NCBI GenBank assembly: GCA_945877815.1
Contig: CAMDWJ010000013.1
Location: 1 to 64,000, forward strand
Reading direction: 5' to 3'
DNA: 64,000 bases
Source: Caenispirillum bisanense
GTDB lineage: Bacteria > Pseudomonadota > Alphaproteobacteria > Rhodospirillales > UBA2165
In this document: in pieces, positions 46,551 to 59,772 of the stretch
Layout of the letters: each line of letters begins with the position of its first letter
How positions within the stretch are numbered: position 1 is the first letter of the stretch
Program-made: the position numbers and the translations under genes
Notes under the pieces: model-generated
Told to the model about the DNA's origin: nothing
Database searches by the model: none
Seen by the model: the letters and a program-made list of their open reading frames with translations, nothing else

Positions 46551-47180
46551 ATGATCTACGAAGTCCGCACCTACGATCTTTATCCGCGCACCCAGCCGGA
46601 AACCATCAAGCGTTTCGGCGAAGCCTATGAGAAGCGCAAGCAATTCTCTGAACTGGCCGGCTTTTTCTATACCGACGTCGGGCCACTCAATCAGATCATC
46701 CATATCTGGCCCTACAAGGATTTGGCCGAACGCGCTCGTATCCGCAAGGAAGCCGCCGCGTCGGGCGTTTGGCCGCCGGATATCTCGAAATTCATCAAGA
46801 ACATGTCGCTCGAAATCTACGAGCCGTGCCCCTTCTCGCCCGAACTCAAGCCCGGCAAGTGGGGACCGTGTTACGAAATGCGCAGCTATATCCTGACGCC
46901 GGGTCTCATCATGGAAAACCGCAAGCGCTGGGAAAAGGCGCTGCCCAAACGGCTCGAATATTCGAACCTCTCCGTCGCCATGGAATGCGATCTCGGCACC
47001 GGCAACAAGTTCGTCCATATCTGGCCCTACAAGGACCCGAACCAGCGCTATGACGTGCGCGCCAAAACCGAGCATGAGGGCGTTTGGCCACCCAAGGGCG
47101 ACACGCCGGACGCGCCGGTCACCGTGTTCAATCAGGAAAACAAACTGATGTACCCGGCCTCGTTCTCGCCGATGCAATAA
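46551..47180 (+). CDS. NIPSNAP-family protein, two tandem domains
   Basis: A 209-residue protein of two ferredoxin-like NIPSNAP domains. The first begins MIYEVRTYDLYPRTQPETI with IIHIWPYKDLAERARIRKEA, the second starts CYEMRSYILTPGLIMENRKRWE with FVHIWPYKDPNQRYDVRAKT. The duplicated HIWPYKD motif marks the repeat. The bacterial family is of unknown function and often accompanies catabolic genes. Confidence 0.88.
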   Translation: MIYEVRTYDLYPRTQPETIKRFGEAYEKRKQFSELAGFFYTDVGPLNQIIHIWPYKDLAERARIRKEAAASGVWPPDISKFIKNMSLEIYEPCPFSPELKPGKWGPCYEMRSYILTPGLIMENRKRWEKALPKRLEYSNLSVAMECDLGTGNKFVHIWPYKDPNQRYDVRAKTEHEGVWPPKGDTPDAPVTVFNQENKLMYPASFSPMQ

Positions 47181-54029: not shown

Positions 54030-55175
54030 TTAAGCGTGGCCCCAGACCTGCTGGGCCATCTCGACCACCAACTCCAGTTTCTTCTTCTGCTGATCTTCCG
54101 ACAGAAGATTGCCGCCGGTGTGCGAGGCAAACCCGCACTGGCCGCTGATGCACATCTGATCCAACGGCATATATTTCGCCGCTTCGTCGATGCGGCGCTT
54201 GAGATCGTCCTTGCTCTCAAGCTCGCCGAACTTCGTCGTAATGATGCCGAGCACGATCTTCAACCCTTTCGGGACGAAACGCAGCGGCTTGAAGTCACCC
54301 GAGCGCGCATCGTCGTATTCGAGGAAGAATCCGTCGATCTTGGTCTCATTGAACATCGCCTCGGCGACGGGTTCGTAGCCGCCCTTGGCATGCCCCCGCG
54401 ACAGCGAATTGCCGCGGCACAGATGCACCGAGATCGCCATGTCCTTCGGACGATCCTTGATCGATTCATTGATCAGCTTGGCGTAGAGCGAGGGCAGTTG
54501 GTCCGGGTTTTCGCCCAGCCCTTTGACGCGCTCGCGCAGTTCGGGATCGCACAGATAGGCGAGGTTGGTATCGTCGAGCTGCACGTATTTGCAGCCCTGC
54601 GCGGCCAGATCCTTGATCTCAGCGGCCCAGACCTTGGCGAGATCGGAGAAGAACTCGTCCATGTCCGGATAGGCCTTCGCATCGACGCCGCCGCGGCCGC
54701 CGCGGAAATGCAACATGCTGGGCGACGGGATCATGACCTTCGGGGTTTCCTTGGTCACGCTCTTGAGGAAGTTGAAGCTCTCGCGCTGGATGCCGCCGGT
54801 CGGCCATTTGAGCTTGCCGACCGTCTTCGGGGTCGGCGGCTGCCAGTTCTGCACCACGCCGCCGACCGGGGTCGACTTCTGCTGCTCGTTCGCGGCGGCC
54901 GGATCGGCGCTTACGTTGCCGCCGGTGGTCACGCCTTCGATGGCATTCAGGAAGTCGCCCGACCAGGAATTGCGGCGGAAGTCGCCGTCGGTCACGGCAT
55001 GGATGCCCACACTTTCCTGCATCTTCACGGCCGCGCGGATCAGGCGATCCTCGACCTCTTTCAATTGCGCTTGCGTGATGGCGCCGGTGCGCTTCTTCTC
55101 GCGCGCTTCCTTCAATTCGGCCGGACGCAGCAGGCTTCCCACTTGATCGGCGCGGAACGGCATTTTATCGGACAT
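54030..55175 (-). CDS. MetE C-terminal-domain-like methyltransferase (methionine synthase II family)
   Basis: A 381-residue protein of the cobalamin-independent methionine synthase C-terminal family without the N-terminal half. The substrate and zinc-binding parts are ADQVGSLLRPAELK, YVQLDDTNLAYLCD, HLCRGNS (His, Cys) and SGQCGFASHTGGN (third zinc Cys). Such short MetE proteins transfer methyl groups from non-folate donors such as plant or organosulphur compounds. GGGGAGAGAG precedes the ATG. It lies in a cluster with VOC, UGSC-type and TrxR-like genes on the same strand. Confidence 0.88.
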   Translation of the reverse strand: MSDKMPFRADQVGSLLRPAELKEAREKKRTGAITQAQLKEVEDRLIRAAVKMQESVGIHAVTDGDFRRNSWSGDFLNAIEGVTTGGNVSADPAAANEQQKSTPVGGVVQNWQPPTPKTVGKLKWPTGGIQRESFNFLKSVTKETPKVMIPSPSMLHFRGGRGGVDAKAYPDMDEFFSDLAKVWAAEIKDLAAQGCKYVQLDDTNLAYLCDPELRERVKGLGENPDQLPSLYAKLINESIKDRPKDMAISVHLCRGNSLSRGHAKGGYEPVAEAMFNETKIDGFFLEYDDARSGDFKPLRFVPKGLKIVLGIITTKFGELESKDDLKRRIDEAAKYMPLDQMCISGQCGFASHTGGNLLSEDQQKKKLELVVEMAQQVWGHA

Positions 55176-55227
55176 ACGAAACTCTCTCCCCTCTACGTTG
55201 TGTGTCGATGTTGAGCCGCCCCGAAAC

Positions 55228-55704
55228 CTATTCGGCGGCGACTTTCTTGTGGCTGCGGCCCTGTTCGGCCGCGGTAGGTTGAACATCAGGTGCGGGCGTG
55301 CCGTCGAGTGCGGTGCTGCCCGGCCAGGCGACATCGGTGATATCGAAGACGATGTCGCTCGGACCCTGGAATTTGATCTCGAATTGCGCGTTGGGTGGAA
55401 TCTCATGCGCCTCGACGACGCAAGCAACGCCCATCGCTTCGAGGCGCGCGCGCACGCTTTCCACATCGTCCACCACCACACCCATATGATGGAAGCCCTC
55501 GTAGTCGAGGCCCTTGCCGATCTGGTCGGTGGCGAAGCGCAGGATGGTGACGTTGATCGAACCGTCGCTGAGGATCACACCGGCCGGGTCGGACATATTC
55601 TTGCCCATGCGCGAAACCTCACGCCAGCCGAAGGCATTCTTGTAGAACTCGGCAGCCTCGCCGGGTTTCTTGCTGGCTAAGGCGATATGGCGGATTTTAA
55701 GCAT
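55228..55704 (-). CDS. VOC-family protein
   Basis: A 158-residue glyoxalase-fold protein. Metal ligands are plausible at His in RHIALASKKPGEA, His in FHHMGVVV and Glu/Asp in the last strand (FDITDVAW). The C-terminal tail (PTAAEQGRSHKKVAAE) is basic and disordered. GGGAGG precedes the start. It precedes the MetE-like gene in the same direction with a 52-nt gap. Confidence 0.82.
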   Translation of the reverse strand: MLKIRHIALASKKPGEAAEFYKNAFGWREVSRMGKNMSDPAGVILSDGSINVTILRFATDQIGKGLDYEGFHHMGVVVDDVESVRARLEAMGVACVVEAHEIPPNAQFEIKFQGPSDIVFDITDVAWPGSTALDGTPAPDVQPTAAEQGRSHKKVAAE

Positions 55705-55826
55705 CGCGGCCTCCCTGCCCGATGATCCGGATTTACTTGGACGTCAGCATAAGGGGGGGCAACGGTCCCGCCAAACGGATTCGATAACATGGGCAACAAG
55801 TTGGGCAGCGTTCCACCTTTGGGCAG

Positions 55827-55854
55827 AAAAAAGGCCGCCGAATGGCGGCCTTTT
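55827..55854 (-). terminator. Rho-independent terminator for the UGSC/TrxR operon
   Basis: aaaaggccgcc / gaat / ggcggcctttt, with the A run at 55827-55832 giving the U-tract on the minus strand. It lies 25 nt after the UGSC-type gene stop and separates this unit from the VOC/MetE-like genes. Confidence 0.9.
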
Positions 55855-55878
55855 ACGCGGTATATGAACTAAAAAGAG

Positions 55879-57543
55879 CTAGCGCCACTCGTCGATGGAG
55901 ATCGTTTTGTTGTAGCGCGTGCCCTGGATCGACCAATAGCCGTTGGTCTCCCCGCCGACCACCACGACGTTGATCTCATCCTCGACGAAGGTATTGATCA
56001 GCTCGTCCGGTTTGGCCTTAAGCTTCGAGGCAAAGGGCTCCTCACCGAAGGTCGCGCGCGGATAGATATAATTCTGCACCAATTGCAGATCCCAATAGAC
56101 GCCGGCCTTCATCTGGGCATTTTCCCACGCCCAGCGGATCAGCTTTTCCTTGGTATCGAAGCCGCCACGCCCAACGAACTGGCGTGCGGTGATGGGATCA
56201 AGCACGAAGCACGGCGGCAGGTTGGGATCGATGCCCGTCAGCATGTCGCGCACATGGTCTTTCCAATGGGTTTCGCGCAGGCCGAGGCAGAAGCTCGACG
56301 AGCGCATGCCCCAGAAGACGCTGACCGTGCTGTCCTCGAGCTTGAAGCCTTTCTGCACATGCAGCGGCGCCCACGGGCTGCGTTCCTCGTTCTCGGCGAA
56401 GGTGCAACTGTTGTAGGCCATATTGTGACCCTGCGAGCCCATATAGGTTTCACCCACCACCGAACCGCCCTGCCCGTTCTGCGACAGCAAGCCGTAAGCA
56501 CGGCCGATGGTCGCATTCGCGTGGTTGTAGGGGCCCATCGCGCCGATGCCGCAATTCATCTCGATCTCATGACGGATCGGACCATTGACGACGACCATCG
56601 CGGCCGAGGACGACGAGGTCGACCCGCGCGCCGAAACTTCGGAGGCCGCGAGCGCCAGGATGACCGGGAAATATTCCGGCCGCGCCCCCGCCATGACGGC
56701 GTTCACCGCAACCTTCTCGACCGTATATTCCCAGCGGCCGCGATTGTGCGTCGGCTGCATGCGACCGACAACTTCATCAGGCTTGCGGCTGGTGCCGGCC
56801 AGCATCGCCGCGACACGTTCCTCGGTCGGCAGCACGATCGGCAGCTTGTCGGTCCAATTGTTGTTGAGGAACAGCTCGTGCAGGTTTTCCTCGGTATCGG
56901 GATCGACCATGCGCGGGGTCGAGCGATCGACGCCGACCGCCATGTCGCCGGCGAGGCCTTTGGTCAGGCCTTCGACGACTTCCTGCATCACCGGGCGGCC
57001 GGTATTAGGGTTGTTGCCGTCGATATAGGCCTTCAACTCGGCGGCCGATTTACCCATCACCGGCTGCGGCACGAAGACGCAGGGCAGTTCCGGCAGCCCG
57101 CCCATCTTGGTGACCGAGCGCACGACCTTATCGAAGATGTGGGTATGTATCGCCACGGTGGGCACGCCGTATTTGGTATCGACGGTGATGGCGTGGGTCG
57201 CGACCGCGGGCGCGCAGGTGCTGCAATGGCCGACACCGAAGATCGCGGCATCGCCGTTCGCCTTGATCTCCTCCCACAGCTTGGGATCATCCTTCTGATA
57301 CATGTTCGAAAGCGAAACCATCTTGGTCGCAACACTCGGCATATGTTCGGCGAACCAGGCCTGAACCTGCTTCAGCAATTCGATGGAATCATCGAAGCGG
57401 CAATCGACGAGATAGATGGTCCGGCCGTCGAGCGAACCCAAGCGGGCCGCAGCCTGCTTTTTCGCGACCTTGGGCGGATAGCCGACGGGATTGAAGACGG
57501 CGAATTTGACACCCTGCCGCGAAGCAACCTTGATCTCATTCAT
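55879..57543 (-). CDS. UGSC-type redox protein fused to a conserved C-terminal domain
   Basis: A 554-residue cytoplasmic protein. Residues 1 to about 205 resemble UGSC-family proteins, whose redox motif is Sec/Cys-Gly-Ser-Cys; here it reads FGVGHCSTCAPA (C107, C110). Residues about 215-554 form a second conserved domain seen alone or fused in other bacteria (NNWTDKLPIVLPTEERVAAM, VEKVAVNAVMAGARPEYFPV, NHANATIGRAYGLL). The function is unknown. The TrxR-like gene is directly upstream (58-nt gap) and should reduce it. A terminator follows. The UGSC assignment is by motif, not alignment. Confidence 0.75.
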   Translation of the reverse strand: MNEIKVASRQGVKFAVFNPVGYPPKVAKKQAAARLGSLDGRTIYLVDCRFDDSIELLKQVQAWFAEHMPSVATKMVSLSNMYQKDDPKLWEEIKANGDAAIFGVGHCSTCAPAVATHAITVDTKYGVPTVAIHTHIFDKVVRSVTKMGGLPELPCVFVPQPVMGKSAAELKAYIDGNNPNTGRPVMQEVVEGLTKGLAGDMAVGVDRSTPRMVDPDTEENLHELFLNNNWTDKLPIVLPTEERVAAMLAGTSRKPDEVVGRMQPTHNRGRWEYTVEKVAVNAVMAGARPEYFPVILALAASEVSARGSTSSSSAAMVVVNGPIRHEIEMNCGIGAMGPYNHANATIGRAYGLLSQNGQGGSVVGETYMGSQGHNMAYNSCTFAENEERSPWAPLHVQKGFKLEDSTVSVFWGMRSSSFCLGLRETHWKDHVRDMLTGIDPNLPPCFVLDPITARQFVGRGGFDTKEKLIRWAWENAQMKAGVYWDLQLVQNYIYPRATFGEEPFASKLKAKPDELINTFVEDEINVVVVGGETNGYWSIQGTRYNKTISIDEWR

Positions 57544-57601
57544 GGCCCGATCCCCGTCGTTGATTGTGTTAACGTAACGATAGGCGATCCAGGCGGTTTT
57601 C

Positions 57602-58531
57602 TCAATGCGAAGCTGTACGGCCTTTGAGGTAGCGCACCGCCGAAATGGCGGCCGTGGCGCCATCGCCGGCGACCGAAGCCAGCTGCGCCACCGAGTTTTT
57701 GCGGATGTCGCCGGCTGCGAAAACGCCGGCCAGCGAGGTCCGCATCAAAATATCGGTTTCGATGTGCCCAGCCGAATCGAGCGTCATAAGGCCTTGTAAG
57801 AAGGCGCTATTCGGCTCCAGCCCGACATAGACGAAGACGCCGGTCACGTCCTGGGTCCGCGCAGCGCCCGTTTTCGCATCGCGGAGGCGGACCGAACTCA
57901 CCGAGTCCTCACCGCAAATTTCCTCGACCACGATGTCGGTCACGATCTCGATCTTAGGATTGGCCGCGATCCGTTCGAGCAGAACACCTCCTGCCTTCGG
58001 TTTGGGGCCACGAACGAAGATCGTGATCTTCGCGACATAATCGGCGAGCACCAAGGCCTCGTCCAAGGCGGCATCGCCGCCGCCGACGATGCAGACCCCC
58101 TGGCCGTCGAAGAACGGCCCGTCGCACGACGCGCAGTGCGACACGCCCCGCCCGGTCAATTTCTCCTCGCCCGGAATGCCGAGCCCGCGCAAGATCGAAC
58201 CCGCCGCGACGATGATCGCGGGTGCCTGCAAAGCCTCCTCGCCGCCATGGACGATGCGCAAATCGCCCGCGAGTTCGATCCGCTCGACCTGGTCGAGTGC
58301 GAACTCCGCACCCGCCTCCTCCGCCTGCTGATGCAGCAATGGCCCGAGTTCGATTCCGCTGATACCTTGCGGAAAGCCTGGAAAATTCTCGATACGCGGC
58401 GCGTTGTTGATCTGCCCGCCGACCCCCATCTGGTCGAGGACGACGACCTTGACCCCTTGACGCGCGGCGGTCATGGCAGCAGTGAGGCCAGCTATGCCCG
58501 CGCCGATAACGATGAGATCAAATTCGCGCAT
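57602..58531 (-). CDS. Thioredoxin-reductase-like FAD/NAD(P)H disulphide oxidoreductase
   Basis: A 309-residue low-molecular-weight TrxR-type enzyme. FAD loop VIGAGIAGLTAAMTAARQG (residues 8-26), the redox pair C133-A-S-C136 in SHCASCDGPFF, the NAD(P)-binding IVGGGDAALDEALVLA and the C-terminal FAAGDIRKNSVAQLA. It passes electrons to a disulphide partner, probably the UGSC-type protein encoded next. I chose the ATG at 58531; a TTG four codons upstream is open. Confidence 0.9.
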   Translation of the reverse strand: MREFDLIVIGAGIAGLTAAMTAARQGVKVVVLDQMGVGGQINNAPRIENFPGFPQGISGIELGPLLHQQAEEAGAEFALDQVERIELAGDLRIVHGGEEALQAPAIIVAAGSILRGLGIPGEEKLTGRGVSHCASCDGPFFDGQGVCIVGGGDAALDEALVLADYVAKITIFVRGPKPKAGGVLLERIAANPKIEIVTDIVVEEICGEDSVSSVRLRDAKTGAARTQDVTGVFVYVGLEPNSAFLQGLMTLDSAGHIETDILMRTSLAGVFAAGDIRKNSVAQLASVAGDGATAAISAVRYLKGRTASH

Positions 58532-59388: not shown

Positions 59389-59772
59389 TTAGATGACGGC
59401 GATGAATTCGATCTGAATGCGGCGATTGCCTTGCAGATCGTTCGGGATCGCGTGGCGAACGGGTGCCTCATCGATGCTTGGGAACACTTCGATCCAACGC
59501 TTGTTCACCGCGTCGCGGTCTGCGCGATCCTTCAGATAAACGGTGACCTTGGCGATATTGGCGACGGTGCCGCCCGCCGTTTCGATGATTGTTTTCATAT
59601 TGGCGAAGCAATTCTTGGCCTGGCCGTCGATGTCGTCCGGAATCTTGTGGGTTTCGGCGTCGTCACCACTGATTCCGGCCGTGAAGACCATATTGCCGAT
59701 CTTCACCACAGCCGGGAAAGGTTGCCCATGCTCGGTGATGCCTTTGCCTTGGATTCGTTCTCTTTTGGCCAT
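59389..59772 (-). CDS. RidA-family enamine/imine deaminase
   Basis: A 127-residue trimeric YjgF/YER057c/UK114-type protein. Family parts: FPAVVKIGNMVFTAGISG, AKVTVYLKDRADRDAVNKRW, the active-site Arg region PVRHAIPNDL and the C-terminal RIQIEFIAVI. RidA removes reactive 2-aminoacrylate-type enamines. The typical Arg of the RidA subgroup (RPYTR or similar) is replaced by VRHAI, so it may be a paralogue (Rid1-7). GGAGGAACGACA precedes the start. Confidence 0.82.
   Translation of the reverse strand: MAKRERIQGKGITEHGQPFPAVVKIGNMVFTAGISGDDAETHKIPDDIDGQAKNCFANMKTIIETAGGTVANIAKVTVYLKDRADRDAVNKRWIEVFPSIDEAPVRHAIPNDLQGNRRIQIEFIAVI

Follow-up and report, generated by a model that had tools for sequence, protein, structure and literature searches.

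In this work we describe, in a window of 64,000 nucleotides (nt) from Caenispirillum bisanense (the whole of the analysed stretch, positions 1 to 64,000 of contig CAMDWJ010000013.1), two adjoining genes, one coding for a thioredoxin reductase (TrxR)-type flavoprotein and the other for a protein in which a UGSC domain is fused to a second, unnamed domain, hereafter the C-domain. On balance it appears probable, if only slightly so, that they form a two-gene, GrdB-like thiol/selenol reductase that has a dedicated TrxR and acts on a small imported metabolite. This reading draws on the remote homology of the UGSC half to GrdB and PrdB, on the pairing of UGSC with the C-domain, on the exchange of UGA and cysteine codons at the presumed active site, and on the pairing of the fusion with a TrxR unlike the housekeeping one.

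Relatives of the fusion were found by a contig scan, which gave 29 loci in Alpha- and Betaproteobacteria, Rokubacteria, Eremiobacterota, Latescibacterota, Chloroflexi, Acidobacteria and an actinobacterium, and in a class sample and an order sample, in which 38 of 385 and 11 of 150 genomes matched, respectively. After L130 and L131 had been dropped (same sites as L001 and L003), 44 distinct fusion loci, including three of one genus (L105, L106 and L140), could be compared with 17 split loci, in which a separate C-domain protein is followed by a separate UGSC gene; L095, with one site of each kind, is counted in both, and L020, L024, L027, L028 and the second copy of L143 stand outside the two sets. 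The genes of the relatives were called with a codon-score script; many stretches stop near UGSC, and the absences reported below hold as far as the stretches reach.

Kinship of the UGSC half with GrdB and PrdB

The Pfam UGSC model (PF24696) matched residues 16-172 of the fusion with 82.2 bits (cut-off 25), and the NCBIfam equivalog model for UGSC (NF041046) scored 57.4 bits, under its cut-off of 125; the rest of the protein outside the UGSC domain gave no Pfam match. The string FGVGHCSTC, pointed out in an earlier note on this DNA, is indeed present and ends at Cys110. The literal (U/C)GSC motif is not found in the window protein, which carries C-S-T-C with the UxxC/CxxC spacing retained (Cys107 and Cys110, in alignment numbering).

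Judged from profile alignments, the UGSC half is remotely homologous to GrdB/PrdB. Indeed, when the UGSC N-terminal domains were compared by hhalign with 11 GRDB-family proteins, a probability of 96.3, an E of 2e-9 and a score of 69.2 were obtained over 87 columns that include the UxxC/CxxC site, whereas none of 20 column shuffles scored above 23.9 and a reversal scored 18.3. A UGSC hidden Markov model, in turn, found four of 21 GRDB loci (E 5.6e-5 to 2.3e-4). GRDB proteins are present in 13 of 142 sampled Alphaproteobacteria genomes (L069-L089, many with TGA at the UxxC site), nine of the 13 also having UGSC/C-domain matches, and L090 has a GRDB gene adjoining UGSC and the C-domain; the GrdE/PrdA family (PF09338) was found in none of the 13 GRDB-bearing genomes.

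The AlphaFold2 model of the fusion (mean predicted local distance difference test, pLDDT, 87.5; predicted template modelling score, pTM, 0.86) gives the UGSC half a predicted beta-alpha, flavodoxin/CheY-like fold, with C107 between a strand and the start of a helix. The matches returned by VIA cover residues 36-199 only and are mostly CheY/flavodoxin-like, the best having a Z of 11.2 (a designed protein) and the next ones of 9 to 10.5. For the fusion, Foldseek against the PDB gave no match at E <= 0.001, and the PDB sequence search gave two matches at E 0.7, of no use.

Selenocysteine and cysteine forms

The UGSC fusion of the window is the cysteine form of a selenoprotein, because the position of Cys107 is UGA in most copies and SelA tracks the UGA form, the genome of the window being without SelA. 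The codon is TGA in 31 of the 37 aligned copies (the window's own included), read as selenocysteine (Sec) in such forms, and TGC in the window, L001, L002, L010, L019 and L024. SelA accompanies the UGA form in all 34 distinct genomes checked and the Cys form in three of seven (43 genomes, from which G530 and G532 were removed as duplicates of G461 and G511, their loci being 100% identical), and the SelA search of the window's genome gave none. Nor was a convincing tRNA-Sec found there: of ten matches to RF01852, ARAGORN identified the seven strongest as ordinary tRNAs, with tRNA-Ser and tRNA-Leu as the only two above the cut-off. With TGC at this position, the protein of the window is not itself a selenoprotein in the sense of an in-frame UGA together with Sec machinery.

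Downstream of the codon, a 30-base piece starting six bases past the TGA resembles the hairpin of a selenocysteine insertion sequence: the median fraction of the same gene's other 30-mers that are as stable was 0.038 (21 distinct sequences), and 0.22 when the Cys forms were treated in the same way (seven sequences); the p of 9e-16 is optimistic, the piece having been picked after the structures were viewed and the sequences being related. In 51-nt pieces after the UGA, the minimum free energy (MFE) z-scores were mostly near zero.

Genes of the Sec machinery also occur near the relatives. SelB lies directly 3' of the fusion in L017, SelA- and SelB-like genes adjoin L090-L093, and SelD-like genes adjoin L090-L092; a Pfam check confirmed those of L091, with SelA, SelB and a protein of the AIR-synthase type, to which SelD belongs. 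A selenoprotein island is seen in L091 (9190-11202) and L092 (10107-11300), where an AhpD-like protein (CFYU; labelled by eye, not by a profile match) and, in L091, a peroxiredoxin-like one (UPYC), with in-frame TGA, stand beside the CxxC/C-domain protein, UGSC and the sel genes.

The C-domain and its pairing with UGSC

The second conserved domain, which the earlier note had recognized as fused to UGSC, is kept across several phyla and is also encoded by a separate gene beside UGSC. All the loci L040-L068 carry the C-domain, and in 25 of these 29 it is accompanied by UGSC, fused (L041, L044, L049, L061, L066 and L067 among others) or adjoining, with none in L042, L055, L060 and L065. This pattern of fusion and neighbourhood indicates that UGSC and the C-domain work together.

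The C-domain, of about 350 amino acids (aa), is more strongly conserved than UGSC, and most matches in the class sample cover it alone. Across 46 sequences it has 13 invariant columns, including D27, P34, N138, R143 and E179, and no invariant Cys. A second copy of its gene lies 3' of the fusion in L093, L094, L095, L108 and L109; in addition, tandem or clustered UGSC/C-domain copies with differing UxxC motifs are found in the Acidobacteria loci L021, L023 and L025 (three, five and two copies, respectively). Modelled alone with AlphaFold2, the domain reached a pLDDT of 91.4 and a pTM of 0.91. Its assignment to a known fold was tried and rejected, Foldseek against the PDB giving no match at E <= 0.001 and the best VIA match, to a Leishmania fumarate hydratase (Z 4.0, 182 residues, root-mean-square deviation 5.6), being too weak to use; this does not prove that the fold is novel.

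At 14 of the 17 split loci an N-terminal stretch with CxxC opens the C-domain protein; the gene calls are shortened in L101 and L092, and L099 lacks the stretch. Five of six stand-alone C-domain proteins gave weak thioredoxin-type matches against NCBIfam, all under cut-off, and the N-terminal stretch is probably thioredoxin-like.

A thioredoxin reductase of a distinct type

The redox pair that the earlier note had assigned to the flavoprotein was confirmed (Table 1). The protein scored 309.9 against TIGR01292, under the cut-off of 343.45, and carries VRGPKPKA where housekeeping TrxRs carry HRRxxxRA; at E <= 1e-40 the window's genome has one TrxR match besides it, at G000:C58, which is over the cut-off. 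The HRRxxxR motif is missing in 18 of 18 UGSC-type TrxRs and present in seven of seven housekeeping ones. This is also reflected in a tree of 25 TrxRs, where 17 UGSC-linked sequences stand apart from seven housekeeping ones across a 100/100 branch; the UGSC-linked label needs two changes on this tree, with the unlinked TrxR of G461 among the linked ones, and L137 forms a long branch. L026 is a metagenome-assembled genome that carries the label Bordetella parapertussis, perhaps in error; its TrxR clusters with the one from an uncultured betaproteobacterium.

Eight genomes were compared at the same threshold: seven of them hold one TrxR over the TIGR01292 cut-off and one or two others under it, which are at the UGSC loci, and the eighth (G461) has only the under-cut-off type, away from UGSC. 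As for adjacency, a TrxR gene lies within 1.5 kb of UGSC/C-domain at 16 of 44 fusion loci versus none of 17 split loci (Fisher p 0.003, a rough value for related loci), or at 17 of 45 fusion loci if the contig-truncated L028 is counted. Since a TrxR stands beside some of the fusions and a CxxC stretch is found in most split loci, each layout may have an electron source of its own.

Organization of the locus and limits of the unit

The four genes lie on one strand, at the place where the earlier note had read them (Table 1).

Table 1. Features of the TrxR-UGSC locus and its downstream neighbours in the window (gene calls for four neighbouring open reading frames, all on the minus strand, 54030-58531)
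Feature	Coordinates	Strand	Remarks
TrxR-type flavoprotein	57602..58531	-	309 aa, ATG start, redox pair C133-A-S-C136
UGSC/C-domain fusion	55879..57543	-	554 aa, cysteine form of a selenoprotein, sole UGSC match in the genome
UGSC (GrdB/PrdB-like) half	56950..57507	-	Cys107 and Cys110 between predicted strand 99-105 and helix 110-124
C-domain, unnamed	55882..56928	-	residues 206-554, no Pfam match
Terminator-type hairpin 3' of UGSC	55826..55854	-	11-bp stem, 4-nt loop, run of T
VOC protein	55228..55704	-	Pfam Glyoxalase match
MetE-like protein (PRK06520 subfamily)	54030..55175	-	381 aa from ATG

The gap between TrxR and UGSC is 58 bases and that between VOC and MetE 52 bp; a longer, mechanical open reading frame of the MetE-like gene, starting from GTG, would overlap VOC. 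Past TrxR lies a universal stress protein gene on the opposite strand and, beyond it, a Rid-family gene (59389-59772); a Rid-family gene is also found 5' of UGSC in the sister species, L001 (7460-7846). A NIPSNAP protein is encoded about 9 kb from UGSC (46551-47180), and a 49% identical relative lies directly 5' of UGSC in L005 (7160-7777).

The earlier note had joined the four genes in a single redox/methyl-transfer system. The grouping of TrxR with the UGSC dithiol protein is supported by the adjacency at 16 of 44 fusion loci and by the TrxR tree, whereas the idea of one methyl-transfer system is not supported, in view of the hairpin and of the distribution of MetE. Because a conserved terminator-type hairpin parts UGSC from VOC-MetE, we read the locus as two units rather than one; from the sequence, VOC and MetE probably form a separate transcription unit and are neighbours of TrxR-UGSC. 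The hairpin, 3' of the UGSC stop, is GC-rich (fold MFE z -3.8, with none of 200 shuffles equally stable), and the sister species has one at the same position, of the same shape and with an altered stem. A promoter/terminator scan gave matches not above chance, and this hairpin is absent from its list.

The MetE-like protein is over the NF005085/PRK06520 cut-off (425.6 versus 313) and shows by eye the strings HLC and QCG, which may belong to the zinc ligands (His/Cys/Glu/Cys). At least 12 PRK06520-type copies are present in the window's genome (12 of 32 candidates scored), and the family occurs in 14 of 14 sampled genomes of the window's family, six with UGSC and eight without; the co-occurrence of the gene families proposed earlier thus fails for MetE, whose distribution is independent of UGSC, and methyl transfer is not supported. 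Of the 44 fusion loci, those of the window and of the sister species are the only ones with both VOC and MetE 3' of UGSC and on the strand of UGSC; in the sister species the order is Rid, UGSC, VOC, MetE and the two proteins are 88% and 91% identical to those of the window, respectively. Within 5 kb of the fusion, a MetE family gene is found in the window, L001, L133 (weak) and L135, with none at 40 of 44 loci, and a VOC gene in the window, L001, L003 and, weakly, L005, the last two on the opposite strand. In L135 a divergent MetE is encoded 2.3 kb away from UGSC-TrxR and shares its strand; in L133 a weak one adjoins UGSC-TrxR on the opposite strand and is missing from that genome's MetE family list. 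The genomes of L133 and L135 have six and seven MetE family matches, and as evidence for membership of MetE these two cases are weak. VOC and MetE were rejected as parts of the unit on account of the kept hairpin, the size of the MetE family and the distribution.

Genomic context of the relatives

Many of the loci have genes nearby for the transport of small organic solutes, among them TctC/TctA and TRAP transporters and NMT1-type binding proteins; further neighbours of UGSC at various loci are amidohydrolases, an M20 peptidase and CoA-transferases. When the neighbours were clustered, TctC, amidohydrolase and CoA-transferase III each recurred in five to seven loci, and an AhpD-like gene in two. 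In one genus an OpuAC betaine-type ATP-binding cassette transporter lies just 5' of the fusion (L105 by Pfam, L106 and L140 by similarity). Moreover, several divergent copies may occur in one genome, with five matches in G511, three copies in L021 and five in L023. The varied neighbours suggest a reductase family with many substrates.

Proposed mechanism and alternative explanations

If the two genes form a GrdB-like reductase, electrons from a reduced donor (NADH, NADPH or other) would reach flavin adenine dinucleotide (FAD) and then the CASC pair of the dedicated TrxR, which would pass them to C107/C110 of UGSC, directly or via the cell's thioredoxin. Once reduced, Cys107 (Sec in most relatives) would act as nucleophile in the reduction of some small, imported organic molecule that is bound by the C-domain or lies adjacent to it; the C-domain might thus provide the substrate or partner site, and the role of the pair would be catabolic. 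A broader proposal, which we put forward tentatively and with more doubt than confidence, is that UGSC and the C-domain make up a new class of GrdB-type reductases in Alpha-/Betaproteobacteria, Rokubacteria, Acidobacteria and others, where a half-GrdB with Sec or Cys and a partner of undescribed fold, replacing the pyruvoyl GrdE/PrdA, would receive electrons from a built-in thioredoxin-like stretch or a private TrxR of non-NADPH type and cleave C-N, C-S or similar bonds in imported betaine-like or carboxylate metabolites.

Several observations weigh against a GrdB-like reductase with its own TrxR. The Pfam GRDB model (PF07355) gave no hit among the 27 UGSC-fusion proteins scanned, and the alignment of UGSC with GRDB spans only the 87 columns mentioned. 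PF09338 was found in two of 26 genomes and in none of the 15 G-numbered ones, G000 included, and the C-domain aligned with GrdE/PrdA with a score of 14.3, within the 11.4-17.3 of five shuffles, the target consisting of two near-identical proteins; because PF09338 was so seldom found and the C-domain showed no similarity to this small target, the glycine-reductase scheme does not seem to be carried over whole. As far as the fold is concerned, the passages on UGSC in PMC2398784 (2008) suggest a thioredoxin-like one, a guess from which our predicted flavodoxin/CheY-like model of the UGSC half differs. No TrxR adjoins 28 of the 44 fusion loci, among them all those of Rokubacteria, Acidobacteria, Chloroflexi, Latescibacterota and Eremiobacterota and that of the actinobacterium L015; even in the sister species (L001/G461) UGSC has no TrxR next to it, the only TrxR of this type being on another contig. 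The transporters and enzymes near UGSC, finally, vary between loci. Two Rokubacteria genomes (L164 and L165) hold both a UGSC fusion and a PF09338 (GrdE/PrdA-type) gene.

Different explanations might also account for the pairing. UGSC might serve redox defence or repair, as a thiol/selenol peroxidase or a disulfide/persulfide/selenenylsulfide reductase kept reduced by its private TrxR, with no catabolic substrate; the AhpD-like and (L091) peroxiredoxin-like proteins with in-frame TGA beside UGSC in L091 and L092, the DUF2249 protein 3' of TrxR in L137 and the universal stress protein gene past TrxR in the window would fit this idea. We nevertheless hold it to be unlikely, because AhpD-like genes recur in two loci against the five to seven of TctC, amidohydrolase and CoA-transferase III, the divergent copies per genome suggest many substrates, and the homology is to GrdB and not to a peroxidase. 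Less likely still is that UGSC carries electrons in the place of a thioredoxin, with the C-domain as the actual catalyst of a chemistry unrelated to glycine reductase. It is true that the CxxC stretch of the split layout fills the N-terminal place held by UGSC in the fusion, and that the C-domain is the more strongly conserved partner and is doubled in five loci; however, split loci hold both the CxxC stretch and UGSC, which is therefore not just its replacement, the C-domain has no invariant Cys, and the Sec residue and the GrdB-like site point to a catalytic nucleophile.

That TrxR, UGSC, VOC and MetE act together on one compound, as a four-gene redox/methyl-transfer system, seems to us very improbable: the shared VOC-MetE pair of the window and its sister species, the MetE genes near UGSC-TrxR in L135 and L133 and the VOC relatives near L003 and L005 would speak for it, but they are outweighed by the hairpin kept between UGSC and VOC, by a MetE family that is large and present regardless of UGSC, and by the 40 fusion loci with no MetE nearby.

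Comparison with known systems

In its passages on UGSC, PMC2398784, which deals with the Global Ocean Sampling selenoproteome, reports a UGSC-containing selenoprotein fused to 'Unknown_1' and gives no function; a 2022 review, in its list, has UGSC without a domain, and the entry for UGSC (NF041046) in a 2026 review (PMC13188914) describes the function as largely uncharacterised. According to the figures given in PMC9402790, UGSC accounts for 8.2% of the selenoprotein genes in ocean-sampling metagenomes. In the search listings and passages covered by our literature search, most of the listed papers being unopened, the kinship with GrdB, the link to TrxR and the split CxxC form are not stated. 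If the idea of a GrdB-type reductase class was correct, it would assign a function to a selenoprotein that is among the most abundant in aquatic metagenomes. The form found in the window, which has no selenocysteine and has its own TrxR adjoining, could be produced in ordinary E. coli, making it testable what UGSC reduces and what reduces UGSC.

The UGSC/Unknown_1 protein, as described in those passages of PMC2398784, resembles the one studied here in that UGSC is fused to a conserved domain also found alone; it is probably the same fusion, and Unknown_1, which we provisionally equate with the C-domain, is probably that domain. The same passages name no TrxR partner, whereas the fusion of the window adjoins a TrxR of its own type; it differs also in having Cys, in a genome without SelA, and in a UGSC half that aligns with GrdB/PrdB-like proteins. 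As regards the reductase, the part of PMC10880999 on these enzymes states that HRRxxxR together with GxGxxA marks NAD(P)H-dependent enzymes, and describes ferredoxin-dependent flavin thioredoxin reductases, which the UGSC-type TrxRs resemble in having CxxC and no HRRxxxR and from which they differ in retaining, for the most part, GxGxxA and in the link of their genes to UGSC. For glycine reductase, the thioredoxin and TrxR genes trxA3/trxB3 of the grd operon adjoin the reductase (the same part of PMC10880999), as TrxR adjoins UGSC here. The likeness to GrdB and PrdB themselves lies in the UxxC/CxxC site, which occupies the same place in a half-domain that appears remotely homologous; in contrast, UGSC has no Pfam GRDB match, its partner is the unnamed C-domain and not GrdE/PrdA, and its fusions are found in Proteobacteria, Rokubacteria, Acidobacteria and others.

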